DNA from: an uncultured Ruminococcus sp.
GTDB taxonomy: Bacteria > Bacillota > Clostridia > Oscillospirales > Acutalibacteraceae
Direction: 5' to 3'
NCBI GenBank assembly: GCA_902794395.1
Contig: CADBHB010000003.1
Location: 22,569-86,568, forward strand
DNA length: 64,000 bases
Position 1 is the first letter of the stretch; the number at the start of each line of letters is the position of its first letter. The notes under the pieces were generated by a model. That model made no database searches, had not been told where the DNA came from, and saw only the letters and a list, made by a program, of their open reading frames with translations. This document shows positions 3,936-64,000 of the stretch, one piece after another. The position numbers were made by a program, and so were the translations under genes.

Positions 3936-6900
3936 ATGCGACTGAAATCACTTGAAGTCCACGGCTTCAAAACCTTTCCCGATAAAACAAAGCTGTCCTT
4001 TGAGAAAGGCATCACCTCCGTTGTCGGACCCAACGGCTCGGGCAAAAGCAACATCAGCGACGCCATTCGCTGGGTGCTGGGCGAACAGTCGCCCAAAAGC
4101 CTGCGCTGCTCCCGCATGGAGGACGTGGTGTTCAACGGCACCGACAAGCGCAAAAAGACCGGCTATGCCGAGGTGACGCTCAACATCGACAACAGCGACC
4201 GCTTTCTCGACTTCAACGGCGACGAGATCGCCGTTACCCGCCGCTATTACCGCAGCGGTGAAAGCGAGTATCTCATCAACAAGGCGTCGGTTCGCCTCAG
4301 GGACATCAACGAGCTGTTCATGGACACCGGTCTGGGACGCGACGGCTATTCGATGATAGGGCAGGGCAAGATAGACAGCATCGTGTCCTCCAAAAGCGAG
4401 GACAGGCGCGAGATTTTCGAGGAAGCCGCGGGCATCTCAAAATACCGCTACCGCAAGATCGACGCGGAGCGCAAGTTAAAAAACACCGAGGACAACCTGC
4501 TGAGGCTGCGTGACATAGTCACCGAGCTTGAGGAGCGCGTGGGTCCTCTGAAAAAGCAGAGCGAAAAGGCAAAGCAGTTTTTGGAGTATTCCGAGGAAAA
4601 GCGCGGACTTGAGATCGCGCTGTGGCTGCAAACGCTCGACCGCTCTCAGGGAAGCCTCAAACTTCAGGATGAAAAAATATCCATCGCCAAATCGCAGTAC
4701 GACGAGGCGGAGCAGGAGCTGGAAAGCATCCGCGAGGAGACCGAGGAGATATATCAAAAAAACGGTGCGCTCGCTTCTCAAATAGATACCGTTCGCGCTC
4801 GGATAACCGCCATCGACGGCGAGATCGCCGAAAAAAACGCGCTTATTTCCGTAGCGGAAAATGACATCCTGCACAGCAACGAAAACATCGCGCGAATCAA
4901 CAGCGAAATAGAGCAGGCGGACAAAAACGCCGATGAATACGAAAAGAGCATAGCCGAAAAGCAGGGGCGCATCAACGTGCTCGATACGCAGATCATCTCT
5001 CGGCAGAAGCACTACGCCGAGGTCAGCGAACAGCTGAACCTTATCAACATCGACTCCGGCAAAAGCAGCGACGCTCTGCAGGAGCTGACGGCGGCGCTGT
5101 CGGTGCTCACCTCGCAGTCCGCGGACGCGCGCGTAATAGATATGACCTCCGACACCTCCATCAACGAGCTGTCGCGGCGCATAGAGGCGCTCAAGGAGGC
5201 AAACGACGAAAGAGCGTCGCAGATAAAGGCGCTCACCGAAATGGGCGAGAGGTACGACGAGGACATTAGTGCGGCGGACGACGAGATCGCCTCGCTGTCA
5301 AATTCCATAGAAGGCCTCGCGCTGAAACAGGCTTCAAAAGAAAAAAAGAGGAATGAGATAAAGGAACGTTGCGACAGGCTGTCGCTCGACGTCAGGGAGC
5401 ATGAGCGCAGGATCAGCTTTTTGGAAAACATGGAGCGCAACCTCGAGGGCTTTTCCAAGAGCGTCAAAACCGTGGTCAACGCCGCTAAAAACGGCAGGCT
5501 GCACGGCGTTTACGGTCCCGTGTCGCGCGTAATCTCCGTTCCCGGGAAATACGCGGTCGCCGTTGAAACAGCTCTCGGCGCCGCCATGCAGAACATTGTC
5601 GTGCAAAGCGACGAGGACGCCAAGCAGGCTATACGCTTCCTGAAATCCACCGACGGCGGCAGAGCTACCTTTTTGCCGCTCAACACCATAAAGCCCCGCG
5701 AGCTGAGAGAGAACGGGCTTGACGACTGCTACGGCTTTGTCGGCATAGCCGCCTCGCTGTGCAGCTGCGACAGCAGGTTCCAAAACATCCTCGGCTCTCT
5801 GCTGGGCAAAATAGTTATCGCCGAGGACCTCAACAGCGCCGCGTCCATCGCAAAGCGCTACAGCTACCGCTTCAAGGTTGTCACCCTGGACGGACAGGTA
5901 GTCAACGCGGGCGGCTCCCTAACGGGCGGCTCGCTTGCAAAAAGCACGGGCGTGCTCAGCCGAGCCTCCGAGATAGCCGGACTGAGAGAGCAGAGCCGAA
6001 AGCTTCAGGCAGAGCTTGATAAGTCCCGTGAGCTGCTTGAGCAGCTTGACCGCGAATTTGCTTCCATCGAGGCTCAGACCCTGGGCGCTCGGGCAGACCT
6101 TTCAAACCGCCGCCAGGATCTGGTGCGCCTGGACGCCGAAAAACGCGCCTGCTTAAACGAGCTGCAATTGCAGACCGACGCCGCCGAAGCCGCGCGCCGC
6201 GAGACAGCCGACTGCCTTGACCGCATAGAGGGGCTAAAGCGCAGCCGCGAGCAGGCGAGAGTCCGCCTCATGGAGCTTAACATCAAGATAGCCGAGGCGG
6301 AGGAAAAGGTTAACGCCGTAACGGGCAGCCGCGCCGAGCTGACCCAAAAGCGCGAGGAGCTGACCTCGGTGCTGCAAAACATCCGCCTTGAAATAGTCAC
6401 CGCGCAAAAGGACATCGACGCCCTAAACGCCGAGATAGTCAACGCGAAAAACTCAGGCACCGACAACACCGAGCGCAAGCGCGAGCTGTTGTCGCAGATA
6501 GCTCAGACAGAGCGCGCCGTAGAGGAAAAAACAGAGGAGATCGCCGCGCTGCGCCGTCTTATCGAAGAAGCAAAGCAGACCCAGGAACGGCACAGGCAGC
6601 AGATCGAGGCGCTAAACGCCCAAAGAGAGCTGCTTGAGAAGCGCAGCGTAGACATCCGCCTGATCGAGCGCGACAAATCGAGCGAACGCGAAAACGCCGG
6701 CAGAGAGCTGGCGCGTCTGGAGGAGCGCAAGATCAATCTGCAAAAGGATTATGACAACATAATCTCCAAGCTGTGGGAGGAATACGAGCTGACCCGCCGC
6801 GAGGCTGAAAAGACAGCCATAGAGATAGAGGACTCCGCCAAGGCGCAGAAGCGCCTTACAAGCCTTAAGCAGAGCATAAAGGCGCTGGGCAACGTCAATG

Positions 6901-58214: not shown

Positions 58215-59309
58215 ATGTTCAAGAAATTTGCAAGCATCGCTCTTGCGGCAATGCTGATCGGCAGCACTTCCATTTTGGCTGCCGGCGCGGCTGATGACAG
58301 CGCTGCTTCCGTTGGCGCTGACGACAGCGCGGCTTCTGTAGGCGCTGATGACGCTTCTGAGGCTACAGGTGCTTCCAGCAAGATTTATTTTGACGTCAAC
58401 ACCACACCTTGGAATGTATCTAACGCTAAGCCCACGTTCTATCTTTATGAGCATGGCGGCGGAGAGATCATCACCTGGGGTTCCAAAAAGGGTAAAATGA
58501 CCGACGAAGGCAGCGGCGTGTTCTCTTATGACCTGGCTGCAAAGGGCATCACCCTCGATTCCAGCAAGGCTTATGGTTGTATTTTTACCGATGACTGGAA
58601 CGCTCAGACCTGCGATCTGATCCTCGGTGCCGACAGTGCCGGCGATACCGCTGTATGTACTGCGGACAAAGTTGAAAACAGCGTTGACTCCAACAAGAAG
58701 AGCCAGATGGTTAAGTGGAAGAGCGGCAAATACGGCAACCCCAAATGCATCACTTCCATCGGTAACGTTATCGGCGATACCCTCTGGCCCGGAGATACCG
58801 ACTATGCTATGTTCGTTCGCTTCCTCACCTCCACCGGTAAGGATGGCCTTGCCAACGCGCTGAAGTTCAACGGCAAAGACGAGCAGACCACTATCGATGA
58901 TACCGCTAAGGCTCTCGGTCTCGGCAAAGAGGATGTTAAGAAGGCTGTTTCAGAAGCAACTGCTGCGGGCGTTACCATTAACTGGGACGAGAGCAAATCC
59001 TCTCTGTCCGGCGGCAGCACCTCCGGCGGCAGCACCTCCGGTGGCAGCTCTTCCGGCGGCAGCTCTTCCGGCGGCAGCACTTCCGGCGGCAGCTCCTCGG
59101 GCAGCAGCTCTTCGGGCGGCAGCTCTTCCGGCAGCAGCTCTTCGGGCAGCAGCTCCTCGGGCAGCAGCTCTTCGGGCGGCAGCTCCTCCGGCGGCAGCAC
59201 AGGTTCCGTAACTTCCGGTGAGGATTCCACCATCTACTTCGTGATCGGCGGCGTTATGCTGGCAGCTATCGGCGTTCTCTTCCTCGCAAGAAAGAAGAGA
59301 CAGTATTAA
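58215..59309 (+). CDS. Secreted, membrane-anchored protein with possible carbohydrate-binding domain and Gly/Ser stalk
   Basis: Not assigned to a named family with certainty. 364 residues: signal peptide (1-about 25, ending AAGA), a short acidic repeat DDSAASVGA twice then DDASEATGA (27-53), a beta-rich domain (about 57-180) beginning KIYFDVNTTPWN with aromatic pieces PTFYLYEHGG, IITWGSKKGKMT and IFTDDWNAQTCDL, a helical region (about 180-265), a 66-residue run of only Gly, Ser and Thr (about 266-331), and a C-terminal anchor IYFVIGGVMLAAIGVLFLARKKRQY-type end (hydrophobic 340-358, then RKKR). The YFD-W-Y/W pattern recalls CBM25/26 starch-binding modules. No LPXTG motif is seen ahead of the anchor. 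Confidence 0.72.
   Translation: MFKKFASIALAAMLIGSTSILAAGAADDSAASVGADDSAASVGADDASEATGASSKIYFDVNTTPWNVSNAKPTFYLYEHGGGEIITWGSKKGKMTDEGSGVFSYDLAAKGITLDSSKAYGCIFTDDWNAQTCDLILGADSAGDTAVCTADKVENSVDSNKKSQMVKWKSGKYGNPKCITSIGNVIGDTLWPGDTDYAMFVRFLTSTGKDGLANALKFNGKDEQTTIDDTAKALGLGKEDVKKAVSEATAAGVTINWDESKSSLSGGSTSGGSTSGGSSSGGSSSGGSTSGGSSSGSSSSGGSSSGSSSSGSSSSGSSSSGGSSSGGSTGSVTSGEDSTIYFVIGGVMLAAIGVLFLARKKRQY
59010..59203 (+). repeat. Tandem Gly-Ser coding repeat
   Basis: About 65 codons built from units of 12-15 bases, mostly GGCGGCAGC(A/T)C(C/T)TC-type and GGCAGCAGCTC(T/C)-type, encoding (GGSTS)(GGSSS)(GSSS)-like repeats. Third-base differences (ACC, TCT, TCC, TCG) show that copies have diverged, but the unit length would permit slippage and length variation between strains. 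Confidence 0.85.
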
Positions 59310-60935: not shown

Positions 60936-60966
60936 AACGCAGGGCGTCAGGGCCTGCGTTTCTTTT
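60936..60966. terminator. Bidirectional terminator shared by acyP and the glycosyltransferase gene
   Basis: AACGCAGG (60936-60943) pairs with CCTGCGTT (60953-60960), followed by TCTTTT on plus and by TTATTATG on minus. The hairpin overlaps the last bases of the glycosyltransferase frame, whose stop is at 60949-60947. Confidence 0.8.
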
Positions 60967-61927
60967 CGTTATACTCACGGTACAGCTCGAACCGCTTTGC
61001 TTTCAGCACCGCCTTTTCTTCCGGCAAACACACCTTGGCGCTTGCGTGCTCTGCGGTCTCCTGAAACACCTCGTCGCTGAACATCCGTTGGCAATACCGC
61101 GTTTTTTCGCTGTCGCTCTCTTTGTTGCGCTCGTCCCAGACAAATTCCGTGCAACGCATAAAGCGCACAAAGGAATAGTCGTAAAAATCCTGCATGTGCT
61201 CCGCCGCGACGTGCTCCCTGCGCGCAAGGTATATCTGCTTCATATCATCAAAGTAGTGCGCCGAAAAACCTCGGGTTATCGTTTCGGTGCCGTTGTTCGC
61301 CCAGAAGTATAGGCATTGGTGGATGAAGTAAAAGCTCTCACAAAAGTGCAGGTAGTCGCAAATGAATATCATATCCTCGCCCTCGGTCAGCAGCTCGCGG
61401 AAGCGCAGACCGTGCTCACGAATGACCTCCGCGCTGAAGATTCGCGTCCAAAGGTGCATCATCTGTCCGCAGTAAAGCAGGGGAAAGAAGGCGCGTTTTT
61501 CTATCGTCTGGCTCTTGGTCAAGCCCGGCAGCAGCTTTGGCTTCACGGTGCCCTTAGAGGGCGTCGCCATGGCGTATTCACAGTTACACAGCGACATCGG
61601 ATGCTCCAAAGCCGCCATATAAAGCGCCTCCATCCAGCCCGGCGCCACATAATCGTCGCTGTCGCAGAACATCACGAACCTGCCCTCAGCCTCATCCAGC
61701 CCTCGGTTTCGCGCCGCTCCTACGCCGCCGTGCTCCAGCGTGATAAGCCGCATACGGCTGTCGTGCGCTGCGTAGGCTCGGCAGATTATCCCGCTGTTGT
61801 CCGTGGAGCCGTCGTCCAGCAAAAGGACTTCAAAATCTTTAAAGGTCTGTTTTTTCAGGCTGTCCAGACAGCGCGGCAGGAATCTTTCCGTGTTGTAAAC
61901 GGGGACTATAACAGTGACAGCGGGCAT
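60947..61927 (-). CDS. Family 2 glycosyltransferase
   Basis: Predicted sugar transferase acting from a nucleotide-sugar donor, probably on the envelope; acceptor unknown. Minus strand from ATG 61927 with AAAGGAGG 8 bases upstream; 326 residues. GT-A fold landmarks: TVIVPVYNTERFLPRCLDSL (about 4-23), LLDDGSTDNSG (about 37-47), GGVGAARNRGLDEAEG and the metal site FCDSDDYV (about 86-93). The C-terminal 120 residues are helical and basic at the end. A single gene with its own promoter, not in a polysaccharide cluster. Confidence 0.93.
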   Translation of the reverse strand: MPAVTVIVPVYNTERFLPRCLDSLKKQTFKDFEVLLLDDGSTDNSGIICRAYAAHDSRMRLITLEHGGVGAARNRGLDEAEGRFVMFCDSDDYVAPGWMEALYMAALEHPMSLCNCEYAMATPSKGTVKPKLLPGLTKSQTIEKRAFFPLLYCGQMMHLWTRIFSAEVIREHGLRFRELLTEGEDMIFICDYLHFCESFYFIHQCLYFWANNGTETITRGFSAHYFDDMKQIYLARREHVAAEHMQDFYDYSFVRFMRCTEFVWDERNKESDSEKTRYCQRMFSDEVFQETAEHASAKVCLPEEKAVLKAKRFELYREYNEKKRRP

Positions 61928-61961
61928 AGATGATCCTCCTTTTGACAGTTTGTTCTGTTTT

Positions 61962-61989
61962 ATTATAACAAAAAAGCCAAAAAAATCAA
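61962..61989 (-). promoter_or_regulatory. Promoter of the glycosyltransferase gene (minus strand)
   Basis: Minus strand: TTGATT (61989-61984), 16-base spacer, TATAAT (61967-61962) preceded by TGT, an extended -10. Confidence 0.75.
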
Positions 61990-62018
61990 CTTTACGCACA
62001 AAAATAATGAAATAAGCA

Positions 62019-62048
62019 TTGAAATGACCTGAGGTTTTGTGCTATACT
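62019..62048 (+). promoter_or_regulatory. Promoter of the secreted protein/peptide/dockerin unit
   Basis: TTGAAA (62019-62024), 18-base spacer, TATACT (62043-62048) preceded by TGC, an extended -10. Divergent from the glycosyltransferase promoter 30 bases away. Confidence 0.75.
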
Positions 62049-62086
62049 ATAGGAGGATTATTGTAATTTCAAAGGAGGAATCCATA

Positions 62087-63274
62087 ATGAGAAAATCATT
62101 CAAACGCATCCTCAGCCTGATTATGGCTGTTGTAATGCTCGGCACACTGCTGATGCTGGCGCCCCTGACTGTCAGCGCGGATACCGAGCAAGCCGAGTTC
62201 CTCGGCGAGACCGTGTCACTGGACAGCGTAATCCGTCTGAATTTTTATGTCGATACAAAGGGCTTGAATGTCAGCTATTATGCGCAGAATTATGATTATG
62301 ATGAGCGTAATGACGGTTATTATGATTTTAGATGCGAGGTCGAGGACGTTGAGGGCAGACCCAACATCCAGAAGTGCTCGGTCGCCGTTCCGGCAAAGTG
62401 CATGTCCGACCGCATTTCCGTAGAGCTTTCTTTTGAGGATGCCGAAAATAACTGGCAGGAGGTTGACCGGGTGTTCAGCGTTAAGGAGTACCTTGAGGCT
62501 CTGGCTGAAAACACCGAGGCGTACGCGCCCAACGGCAAGGCTGACGCTTTGAGATACCTCTGCTATGCCACCCTCAATTACGGCGCGGCGGCTCAGCTGC
62601 AGTTTGGGCACTTCAGCGATAATCTTCCTCTCGCTAACGAGAACGTGAATTATCAGACCCCTGCCTACGGTTCCGATGAGCTTCCCGAGCTGACCGTTGA
62701 CGAGGGCAGCCAAACTGATTTTGAGTCTGTCGGCTTGAAATACTACGCGTCCAGTTTGGGCTTGTATTCCGACACCAGCTACGCTGTCTGCTTTGAGGAT
62801 CTTAACTTGCCCGGAAATGTGGATGTACATGACAACAGAGAAGACAAAGGCTACAGCGTTTGGGGTCAGTACGTCGGTAAAAAGAAAATCGGCGTTGATT
62901 CTGATGGCTACGATAATTATAACTATATGGTATCCTATGCCTTAAGCGGTATCGCCGCGCAAGATCTGCTCAATGACATCCCTGTGACCATTTCCTACTA
63001 CAATAATTATTATGATTACGAGAATGGCACACAGATCTACGAGAACGCTGAGATCAAAACCACCTTCAGCCCCCGCACCTATATCGCGAAGGTCATGGCA
63101 AATAAGGGCGTTCACCCGAAGTACTATGATTATGAGAACGGCGGCTACTATAATGAGGAAACCGATGAGTATGAGTATTATCCCGAGGATATGAGTTATG
63201 AGGAATCATGTCTTGAAAACACCGTGCTCGCTATCTACGACTACAGCGTAAGGGCTTCGGCTTACTTTAACTAA
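62087..63274 (+). CDS. Secreted Tyr-rich protein with an internal duplication, unknown function
   Basis: No family assigned. 395 residues: signal peptide (1-about 31, RKSFKRILSLIMAVV... ending VSA), then two modules. Module 1 (about 37-200) begins GETVSLDSVIRLNFYVDTKG, is beta-rich, and ends in a helix pair VKEYLEALAENTEAYA and ALRYLCYATLNYGAAAQLQF. Module 2 (about 226-395) repeats that order, SVGLKYYASSLGLYSDTSY ... SPRTYIAKVMANKG ... VLAIYDYSVRASAYF. The NYGAAAQ helix occurs, from memory, in many Clostridia surface proteins. Tyr/Asn/Asp-rich stretches (about 63-75, 305-315, 345-365) are unusual. ATG 62087 has AAAGGAGG 8 bases upstream. First gene of a three-gene unit ending in a dockerin. 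Confidence 0.75.
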   Translation: MRKSFKRILSLIMAVVMLGTLLMLAPLTVSADTEQAEFLGETVSLDSVIRLNFYVDTKGLNVSYYAQNYDYDERNDGYYDFRCEVEDVEGRPNIQKCSVAVPAKCMSDRISVELSFEDAENNWQEVDRVFSVKEYLEALAENTEAYAPNGKADALRYLCYATLNYGAAAQLQFGHFSDNLPLANENVNYQTPAYGSDELPELTVDEGSQTDFESVGLKYYASSLGLYSDTSYAVCFEDLNLPGNVDVHDNREDKGYSVWGQYVGKKKIGVDSDGYDNYNYMVSYALSGIAAQDLLNDIPVTISYYNNYYDYENGTQIYENAEIKTTFSPRTYIAKVMANKGVHPKYYDYENGGYYNEETDEYEYYPEDMSYEESCLENTVLAIYDYSVRASAYFN

Positions 63275-63287
63275 GGAGGACAGATCG

Positions 63288-63431
63288 ATGAAAGACTATG
63301 AACGCGCGCAGATGATCGTGACCGATCTTTCTGCCGAGGATGTTATCGTTACTTCCGAGCCGGATATGTACAGCCCTAACTATCAGAGCGGCGAAAGCTA
63401 CTACGGCTTCAATTGGACGCTGTGGCAGTGA
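63288..63431 (+). CDS. 47-residue peptide, unknown function, coupled to a dockerin gene
   Basis: Too short for routine gene calling but well supported: GGAGGA 8 bases before the ATG, 13 bases after the previous stop, and its TGA overlaps the ATG of the dockerin gene (TGATG). The peptide starts MKDYERAQMIVTDLSAED, continues VIVTSEPDMYSP, and ends in the aromatic stretch ESYYGFNWTLWQ. It has no signal sequence and no hydrophobic segment. It could be a regulator, a chaperone-like partner, a peptide modified after translation, or a leader whose translation sets dockerin expression. I recall similar MKxYE... peptides with DVIxTS in Clostridia, but cannot verify that here. Confidence 0.75.
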   Translation: MKDYERAQMIVTDLSAEDVIVTSEPDMYSPNYQSGESYYGFNWTLWQ

Positions 63432-63811
63432 TGAAGCGCTTGCTTCGGGCGCTTTTGCCCCCCTGCTGTGCGGCGCTAGCCTCGGCAGTTATCATCACGG
63501 CGGTCAGCGCCGTAAATACCGATACCCGTTACATCCGCGGTGACGCCGACGGAAACGGCAGGGTCACTGTGTCCGACGTCACTCTCATCCAGCGCTGCCT
63601 CGCCGATCTGGTCAAGCTTTCACAAGCCGACATCAAGGCAGCCGACGTGAACGGCAACGGCATTGTGGATGTAGACGACGCCACGGCTATTCAGCGCTGG
63701 CTGGCGTTGTATGGGAATGAGTATAATATAGAAGAAACGGTTTTTTGCCAAACCGAGCCACCCACTGTGGTGTTCAGCACACAGGGAGGCAACGATCTAC
63801 CGTTTGTATAA
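63431..63811 (+). CDS. Stand-alone secreted type I dockerin protein
   Basis: Dockerins bind cohesins of cellulosome/amylosome scaffoldins with calcium. 126 residues: signal peptide (1-about 26; KRLLRALLPPCCAALASAV), a few residues, then two calcium-loop/helix repeats, DADGNGRVTVSDVTLIQRCLA (about 38-58; loop D38-D49) and DVNGNGIVDVDDATAIQRWLA (about 72-92; loop D72-D83), and a 34-residue tail. No catalytic or other module is attached, which is unusual: dockerins are normally the tail of an enzyme. ATG 63431 overlaps the TGA of the 47-residue peptide. An in-frame TTG at 63413 would remove the signal peptide character at the start. Confidence 0.88.
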   Translation: MKRLLRALLPPCCAALASAVIITAVSAVNTDTRYIRGDADGNGRVTVSDVTLIQRCLADLVKLSQADIKAADVNGNGIVDVDDATAIQRWLALYGNEYNIEETVFCQTEPPTVVFSTQGGNDLPFV

Positions 63812-63824
63812 AGTAATACAGCTT

Positions 63825-63857
63825 AATCTCCCTTGAGTTTTTCAAGGGAGATTTTTT
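63825..63857 (+). terminator. Terminator after the dockerin gene
   Basis: AATCTCCCTTGA (63825-63836) pairs perfectly with TCAAGGGAGATT (63842-63853), five-base loop, then TTTT. Confidence 0.93.
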
Positions 63858-63909
63858 ATGACGATAAAGCAAAAAACACACCGCGCGACTTAATACTAAA
63901 TTCAAATAA

Positions 63910-63937
63910 AAAACAGACAATCTTTGCGGTCTGTTTT
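63910..63937 (-). terminator. Terminator-like hairpin read on the minus strand at the right edge
   Basis: AAAACAGAC (63910-63918) pairs with GTCTGTTTT (63929-63937). On the minus strand GTCTG is followed by a long T run (TTTTTTATTT), so it would end a minus-strand transcript entering from beyond the right edge. Confidence 0.6.
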
Positions 63938-64000
63938 CCGCAATACTTCGTTGTCGTCCTTGCAAGGCGCCAGCCTTGCGGCGTCCTTCGCCTCGTCTTG
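63938..64000. other. Right-edge non-genic sequence with a hairpin
   Basis: After the minus-strand hairpin comes GCAAGGC (63962-63968) with GCCTTGC (63973-63979), loop GCCA, in a GC-rich context. A minus-strand frame open from the edge to 63902 covers 32 codons, but its stop lies past the terminator T run and it looks like no known protein end. No supported gene here; it could be the edge of a dispersed element. Confidence 0.35.

Follow-up and report, generated by a model that had tools for sequence, protein, structure and literature searches.

The final part of a 64,000-nucleotide stretch of DNA from an uncultured Ruminococcus sp. (the window; GenBank assembly GCA_902794395.1, contig CADBHB010000003.1) carries three adjacent forward-strand genes, encoding a secreted protein (P0001), a small peptide and a stand-alone, or free, dockerin (Table 1). 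The genome comprises 2.2 Mb in 51 contigs, and the window corresponds to positions 22569-86568 of contig C3, ending on that contig's final base (C-numbers denote contigs of this genome, G-numbers genomes and L-numbers fetched loci). The secreted-protein gene is separated from the peptide gene by 13 nt, with AAGGAGG ahead of the peptide, and the ATG of the dockerin gene shares one base with the TGA of the peptide gene (TGATG). An earlier note on this DNA had grouped the three as one unit, and this grouping stands: the genes are real and tightly spaced, and they are followed by a terminator with a z score of -4.5. Promoter-like sites are more frequent around the trio than expected, with seven in 61000-64000 vs 2.9 ± 1.9. 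Judged from comparisons with relatives, the trio represents a conserved operon type in which a precursor of the kind seen in ribosomally synthesized and post-translationally modified peptides (RiPPs) is encoded together with a free dockerin and a surface-type secreted protein. The small peptide resembles the precursors of linear polyphosphorylated peptides (LPPs), RiPPs described from the lpp cluster of Paenibacillus alginolyticus (Popov et al., Nat Commun 2026; PMC13381572).

The peptide belongs to a widespread family. An alignment of eight peptides was searched in 88 genomes of the genus, each at least 90% complete, and gave matches in 65 of them at E≤0.1 and none in the other 23; twelve matches lie in the window's own genome. 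At E≤0.01, matches extend to 38 of 200 genomes of the family and to 24 of 107 genera, own included. A model made from 103 relatives without the window copy picks the window peptide alone among the 659 open reading frames (ORFs) of the window (E 1.7e-10), and a model from 23 peptides of other genera finds it at E 8.5e-8; the seed for the initial recruitment of these relatives had included the window copy. By these searches the window peptide is not a chance ORF. Nearly all of the 60 peptide regions fetched for comparison came from the top of more than 150 matches listed, and weaker matches are therefore under-represented among the loci described here. In one fetched locus (L098), a more distant peptide (YISPEFDY...) is encoded at 6558-6683, flanked by genes for a large protein and for a dockerin protein and upstream of a fused peptidase-nucleoside triphosphate (NTP) transferase; the family may be wider than counted, since the model used here misses this peptide.

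Conservation is concentrated in the N-terminal leader. Tyr4, Glu17, Asp18, Ile20 and Ser23 are invariant across the eight aligned peptides. Among 104 collected peptides, the ungapped leader has the Tyr in all 104, Asp 14 residues on in 102 (Asn in two) and Ser 19 residues on in 103, a conservation that is partly selected, since a model served to collect the peptides and the Tyr-Asp/Asn spacing to position them. The Ser is kept in 80/81 peptides of the genus and 23/23 of other genera; a Pro completing a YxxP motif is present in 5/81 and 16/23, respectively. After the leader, the C-terminal part is variable across the family. The earlier note had described a small cytosolic-looking peptide; the picture of such a peptide lacking its own role is not supported and gives way to one of a RiPP-precursor-type leader, with matching neighbours in relatives and an expanded family. 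The LPP-like nature of the window peptide is well supported by these features. The term LPP-like, rather than LPP, is used because the Pro of YxxP is absent and because no RiPP recognition element (RRE), peptidase, kinase or exporter is encoded beside it.

Table 1. Features of the three-gene unit, in window coordinates
Feature	Position	Strand	Basis
Sigma-70-like promoter site, TTGAAA-18-TATACT, TG ahead of second hexamer	62019-62048	+	Consensus match only, 10/12
Secreted protein P0001, 395 residues, Tyr-rich	62087-63274	+	
Putative signal sequence of P0001	about 62087-62179	+	By eye
First half of duplicated domain NFY	62198-62608	+	Own model, 87.6 bits, window among seeds
Second half of duplicated domain	62591-63271	+	Own model, 67.8 bits, window among seeds
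Shine-Dalgarno AAGGAGG of peptide gene	63273-63279	+	Sequence
LPP-like (RiPP-type) precursor peptide, 47 residues; leader to about Ser23, then variable part	63288-63431	+	
Codon of Ser23, candidate phospho-acceptor	63354-63356	+	Analogy with core Ser3 of LppA (PMC13381572)
Free type I dockerin, 126 residues, putative signal sequence	63431-63811	+	Signal sequence by eye
Dockerin domain, two calcium-loop repeats	63539-63697	+	Pfam, residues 37-89; loops by eye
Dockerin C-terminal tail NDLPFV, ELPFIP-like class	63791-63808	+	Tail comparison
Intrinsic terminator	63825-63853	+	Minimum free energy -18.2, z -4.5, 0/200 shuffles as good

The neighbours of these peptides were counted within 3.5 kb on the same strand with own models, the model for ATP-binding cassette (ABC) transporters being loose. 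Among 67 peptides of the genus, in loci fetched for the peptide, a gene for the secreted domain lies directly upstream of 50, and a free dockerin is near 15. The order secreted protein, peptide, free dockerin is repeated on C13 and C7 of the same genome and in G351, and exactly so in another genus (G233, contig C74), where the dockerin reaches 32.3 bits with PF00404; the earlier note had named a trio never adjacent elsewhere as the finding that would speak against it, and the trio does recur. In other genera, 20 fetched loci yielded 23 peptides by own model. A PqqD-type candidate RRE is near 12 of them, an HprK-like kinase near 11, an S24/S26-type peptidase near 10, an ABC transporter near seven, and NTP_transf_5 and a free dockerin near three each, and the secreted-domain gene is directly upstream of nine. 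Pfam agreed with the PqqD assignment in 3/3 cases checked (39-48 bits) and with NTP_transf_5 in 2/2, and ABC transporters are clear (L187, L196; PF00664). One locus of another genus also encodes a clear radical S-adenosylmethionine/SPASM protein of the RiPP-maturase type.

These neighbourhoods bear on two alternative explanations. The peptide might be an unmodified small partner of the secreted protein, such as a pilot or chaperone, produced by translational coupling; the gap between the two genes is a few nucleotides at many loci, and most loci of the genus have no local enzymes. The RiPP-type leader and enzyme neighbourhood in other genera and the variable C-terminal part speak against such a partner, and this explanation is considered quite improbable. 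Alternatively, the peptide could be LPP-like while the dockerin and the secreted protein are merely housed in the same operon, with no joint function. This is consistent with the 56 of 80 genus peptides that lack both PqqD and a free dockerin in their vicinity, and with the 14 of 23 other-genus peptides that have no secreted-domain gene directly upstream. The recurrence of the trio order in G233 and at three loci of the own genome, window included, argues against mere co-housing, as does the co-occurrence of free dockerins with PqqD: a free dockerin is nearby in 13 of 16 genus peptides with PqqD near and in 8 of 64 without (Fisher p 2.5e-7, calculated on rows that are related rather than independent and that include some loci retrieved because of their dockerin or domain gene). 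Co-housing without a shared role is regarded as possible, though not probable.

The genome that contains the window encodes candidates for a maturation machinery. PqqD exceeds its cut-off at five places (C5, C7, C8 and twice on C21), NTP_transf_5 is found on C7, C8, C10, C21 and C32, and homologues of the HprK-like kinase occur on C2, C8 and C14. On C8, homologues of the kinase, RRE, peptidase and NTP transferase stand in a row, followed by a polysaccharide-flippase-type protein; in the stretch fetched around this row (L161, C8:81000-92000), no precursor peptide was found with the own model. On C21 and C7, a peptide gene and a free dockerin are accompanied by an RRE and a fused peptidase-NTP transferase. 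The C21 peptidase exceeds the cut-off of PF00717 (26.5 bits) and stays below that of TIGR02228, the C7 peptidase is below the PF00717 cut-off, and the C8 peptidase is recognized by own model only; the Ser/His/Asp motif of SipW-like peptidases was seen by eye. By the coordinates of the matches listed for the genus, a kinase lies downstream of a peptide match in the same orientation in G314 (C106), G321 (C69) and G074 (C28). An ABC exporter was found within 3.5 kb of 0/67 genus peptides with the loose model, and the own genome was not searched for one. A search with one RRE against solved structures returned only the lasso RRE TbiB1, at E 0.029. In L037 (3899-4603) and its relatives, an acidic C-terminus, e.g., EEDDDEIDLVM, is common to membrane-type proteins encoded in the maturation clusters.

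Since candidate machinery is encoded elsewhere in the genome, the window peptide could be matured in trans. Its leader, from Tyr4 to about Ser23, would most likely be bound by a PqqD-type RRE, and an HprK-like kinase would phosphorylate the conserved Ser23. A cytosolic SipW-like peptidase would then cut the leader, and the core would be exported; C7, C8, C14 and C21 hold the candidate genes. The free dockerin would be exported to a cohesin, displaying its short C-terminal tail on a linker, and the mature peptide would most probably act at the cell surface together with the secreted protein and the dockerin. The reading as a whole, in which an LPP-like precursor is coupled in one operon to two exported proteins, matured in trans and active at the surface, is considered fairly probable.

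The secreted protein contains 43 Tyr among its 395 residues (11%), in line with the Tyr-rich character noted earlier, and no Pfam or NCBIfam family matches it at E≤1. Its description as duplicated holds for the family but not for the window protein alone. P0001 compared with itself gave no significant alignment (best E 0.39); at the family level, the separated halves of the domain, named NFY, from 66 proteins are homologous by profiles (hhalign 97.6%, E 2.9e-12), and the first-half model recovers 40/66 second halves. Separated halves were used in this retest because the iterated half-domain models with which the halves had been chosen cross-match. NFY recurs in long proteins. In four of the six scanned, BspA-type leucine-rich repeats or InlB-type B-repeats score above the cut-off, and the remaining two match those repeats below it only. 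The NFY match ends no more than 15 residues from the protein end in 69/83 ORFs whose stop lies inside the fetched loci. P0001 is a minimal member of this family of surface-type proteins that end in the duplicated domain. Its closest relative, in G270, is also short (35% identity, E 1e-22) and is encoded in a locus with the order free dockerin, secreted protein, peptide, with divergent glycosyltransferase-like genes by eye. In the window (60947-61999, minus strand), as in its nearest relative locus (L034, 6450-8319), genes of this appearance are divergent from the trio, again by eye. Single-sequence searches with P0001 were replaced by profiles; they had given matches in 4/250 family genomes at E≤0.001, own included, and in 58 of 100 genus genomes at E≤1, many of these at the signal-sequence end only. 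Against solved structures, the NFY profile reached one adhesin chain at E 0.02, which was not accepted as a match.

The stand-alone dockerin reported earlier was confirmed, with 39.7 bits against a PF00404 cut-off of 22.9 and tandem calcium-loop repeats. The genome has 57 dockerin matches. Its free dockerins are the five matches in the shortest frames (123-149 codons), and for 5/5 a peptide gene is no more than 2 kb away, a proximity that a simple area estimate puts at about 3% per dockerin. In a tree of 62 dockerins, based on few columns, the 20 free ones require four changes, compared with a mean of 17.3 for shuffled labels (0/500 as low). The tree took 42/52 non-free matches, leaving out two weak ones, seven running into a stop and one by hand, and 15/18 short dockerins of other genomes, three having been missed by a text pattern. 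The free dockerins group apart from the genome's other dockerins, though not as one resolved clade, and the window dockerin is nearest to that of G270. Potential partners are encoded in the same genome, which has five cohesin matches, four of them over the cut-off. In protein scans, the C1 protein passes (27.6 bits) and one C7 protein is below the cut-off; another match, on C20, reached 28.4 bits in the genome search and 23.5 vs a cut-off of 24.1 in the protein scan. A C7 protein of 1312 residues gave no cohesin match when scanned whole, and two stretches cut out of it pass (26.4 and 24.2 bits). The protein with the borderline C20 match (L165, 1525-3090) belongs to the family of the window's secreted protein and has a peptide gene downstream.

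In the free dockerins, the linker and the C-terminal tail together span about 30-45 residues. An ELPFIP-like tail is present in 16/23 of them (16/24 counting G000 C7 33453, a locus-edge fragment of a longer protein), and most of the remaining ones have GWG..F.P tails. The same class of tail was found in 2/33 dockerin proteins longer than 175 residues, 24/104 peptides and 9/554 other ORFs, seven of these nine being small proteins of the same clusters; the motif was picked after the tails had been viewed. Small lipoproteins beside free dockerins share the ELPFIP-like tail, as two adaptors of one partner might. This sharing, together with the cohesin matches and the borderline C20 protein, would fit a model close to that of the earlier note, in which the free dockerin serves to deliver or tether the secreted protein or to compete for cohesins, and the peptide is incidental. 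Against that model, by the counts above, the constant companion of the secreted protein is the peptide and not the dockerin. In G139, it is the secreted protein that carries the tail, and one scan of the C7 protein in full returned no cohesin match. A pure adaptor role of the dockerin is considered unlikely.

Tails are shared between peptides and exported neighbours at some loci. The G139 peptide ends in GWSDWWTPEF and the secreted protein beside it in GWSDWWTPEY. In other genera, the peptide tail resembles that of the exported neighbour (permutation 3/20000, 8 loci), a likeness carried by G139, G121, G233 and G160, with little or none in the other four loci; without the secreted-domain partners, the figure is 33/20000 (7 loci). 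For dockerins of the genus, the corresponding permutation gave 182/20000 in 21 related loci. Shared tails as a general rule were rejected: the tail of the window peptide does not match that of the window dockerin (score 10), the permutation for the own genome is not significant (1438/20000), and all small exported partners in the genus gave 12817/20000. A C-terminal tag system can be envisaged, built on the ELPFIP-class tail that free dockerins and small lipoproteins carry behind flexible linkers, in which the modified peptide would be an element of surface assembly that mimics, or is joined like, the tags holding surface proteins on a cohesin scaffold or membrane. This proposal is supported in part only, because tail sharing holds in other genera and not in the own genome or the window, and it is put forward tentatively. 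If true, it would provide a first role for LPP-type RiPPs.

Several observations weigh against an LPP-like peptide matured in trans and acting at the surface with its two neighbours, including the results on tails in the window and the own genome given above. From the trio up to the contig end, no gene for an RRE, peptidase, kinase or exporter is present in the window locus. The window leader reads YERA, keeping Tyr4 and having Ala in place of the Pro of YxxP, which is essential for RRE binding in LPPs according to PMC13381572, and the distance from Tyr to Ser is 19 here vs 18 in the LPP motif. Of the 67 genus peptides, only 12 have PqqD near, four a peptidase, four NTP_transf_5 and none a kinase. 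A kinase homologue is present in 86/88 genomes of the genus and a peptide match in 65, and the kinase thus lacks specificity for the peptide. Pfam gives no match for the C8 kinase. In other genera, the Pfam signal for the S24/S26 peptidases is below the cut-off in L189 and absent in L187, the latter matching an archaeal-type signal peptidase I of NCBIfam at 40.9 bits, below the cut-off of 51.85. The kinases there are also weak, with PF07475 at E 0.0003-0.004 in three and no match in two, and ScmC-/HprK-related types below the cut-off. Finally, an AlphaFold2 model of P0001 alone had a pLDDT of 38.7 and a pTM of 0.27; the structure was not predictable in this way and was not used for a fold search.

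Other features of the region were seen in passing. A secreted-looking protein encoded at window positions 58215-59309 has, by eye, an extended Gly/Ser repeat and, at its C-terminal end, a hydrophobic stretch with basic residues behind it. The contig break falls within a dispersed repeat (window 63900-64000), of which an exact 50-base piece is also present on C6 (L101, 1167-1216, minus strand); by eye, ORF translations resembling this repeat occur in L052 and L163.

LPP-like peptides may be linked, as gene neighbourhoods suggest, to surface proteins of the cohesin-dockerin type. The biological roles of LPPs are stated to remain unknown (PMC13381572), and the present loci offer concrete partners for testing the role of LPP-type peptides, while free dockerins gain a defined genomic company. 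The main text of PMC13381572 contains none of the terms dockerin, cellulosome, Clostridia and Ruminococc. In the limited literature collection searched, no paper containing both PqqD and dockerin was found, and three papers containing both dockerin and RiPP showed no peptide-dockerin link in their titles and the beginnings of their abstracts.

The window dockerin has the two calcium-loop repeats and a PF00404 match above the cut-off in common with the type I dockerins of cellulosome- and amylosome-type systems, and similar solved chains include Ruminococcus bromii amylases; the free dockerins differ in having no attached catalytic or binding module. The peptide loci are comparable to paeninodin-type lasso clusters (PMC7533575, PMC13381572) in their PqqD RRE, HprK-like kinase, NTP transferase and Tyr/Trp-xxP leader, and differ in having a SipW-like peptidase, with no cyclase/B2 peptidase noticed by eye beside the peptides. 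An antimicrobial or lasso peptide is very improbable here. The [Y/W]xxP leader logic is lasso-like (PMC13381572), and some cores start with Gly and have Asp/Glu at 7-9 by eye; the window core has neither the starting Gly nor the Asp/Glu pattern, and no cyclase was noticed by eye in the fetched loci, where no model search for one was made. The closest comparison is with the LPP cluster, which comprises the RRE LppB, the SipW-like peptidase LppS, the HprK-like kinase LppK acting on core Ser3, the NTP transferase LppN and the exporter LppD, and in which the leader motif is YxxPxVLxHQxIxFETxxS (PMC13381572). In the present family, the motif in other genera is about YxxPExExxEFDxEDVITxS and this genus has mostly lost the YxxP Pro. 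A genome may hold as many as 12 peptide matches, mostly behind surface-protein genes in the examined loci. The clusters include free dockerins and lipoproteins, the peptidase and NTP transferase are fused on C21 and C7, and the window copy has candidate machinery in trans only. Both systems share a small precursor with a conserved N-terminal leader, in which a Tyr is followed by Ser 18-19 residues on, and a variable C-terminus, and the loci of relatives have the same set of a PqqD-type RRE, SipW-like peptidase, HprK-like kinase, NTP transferase and ABC exporter.

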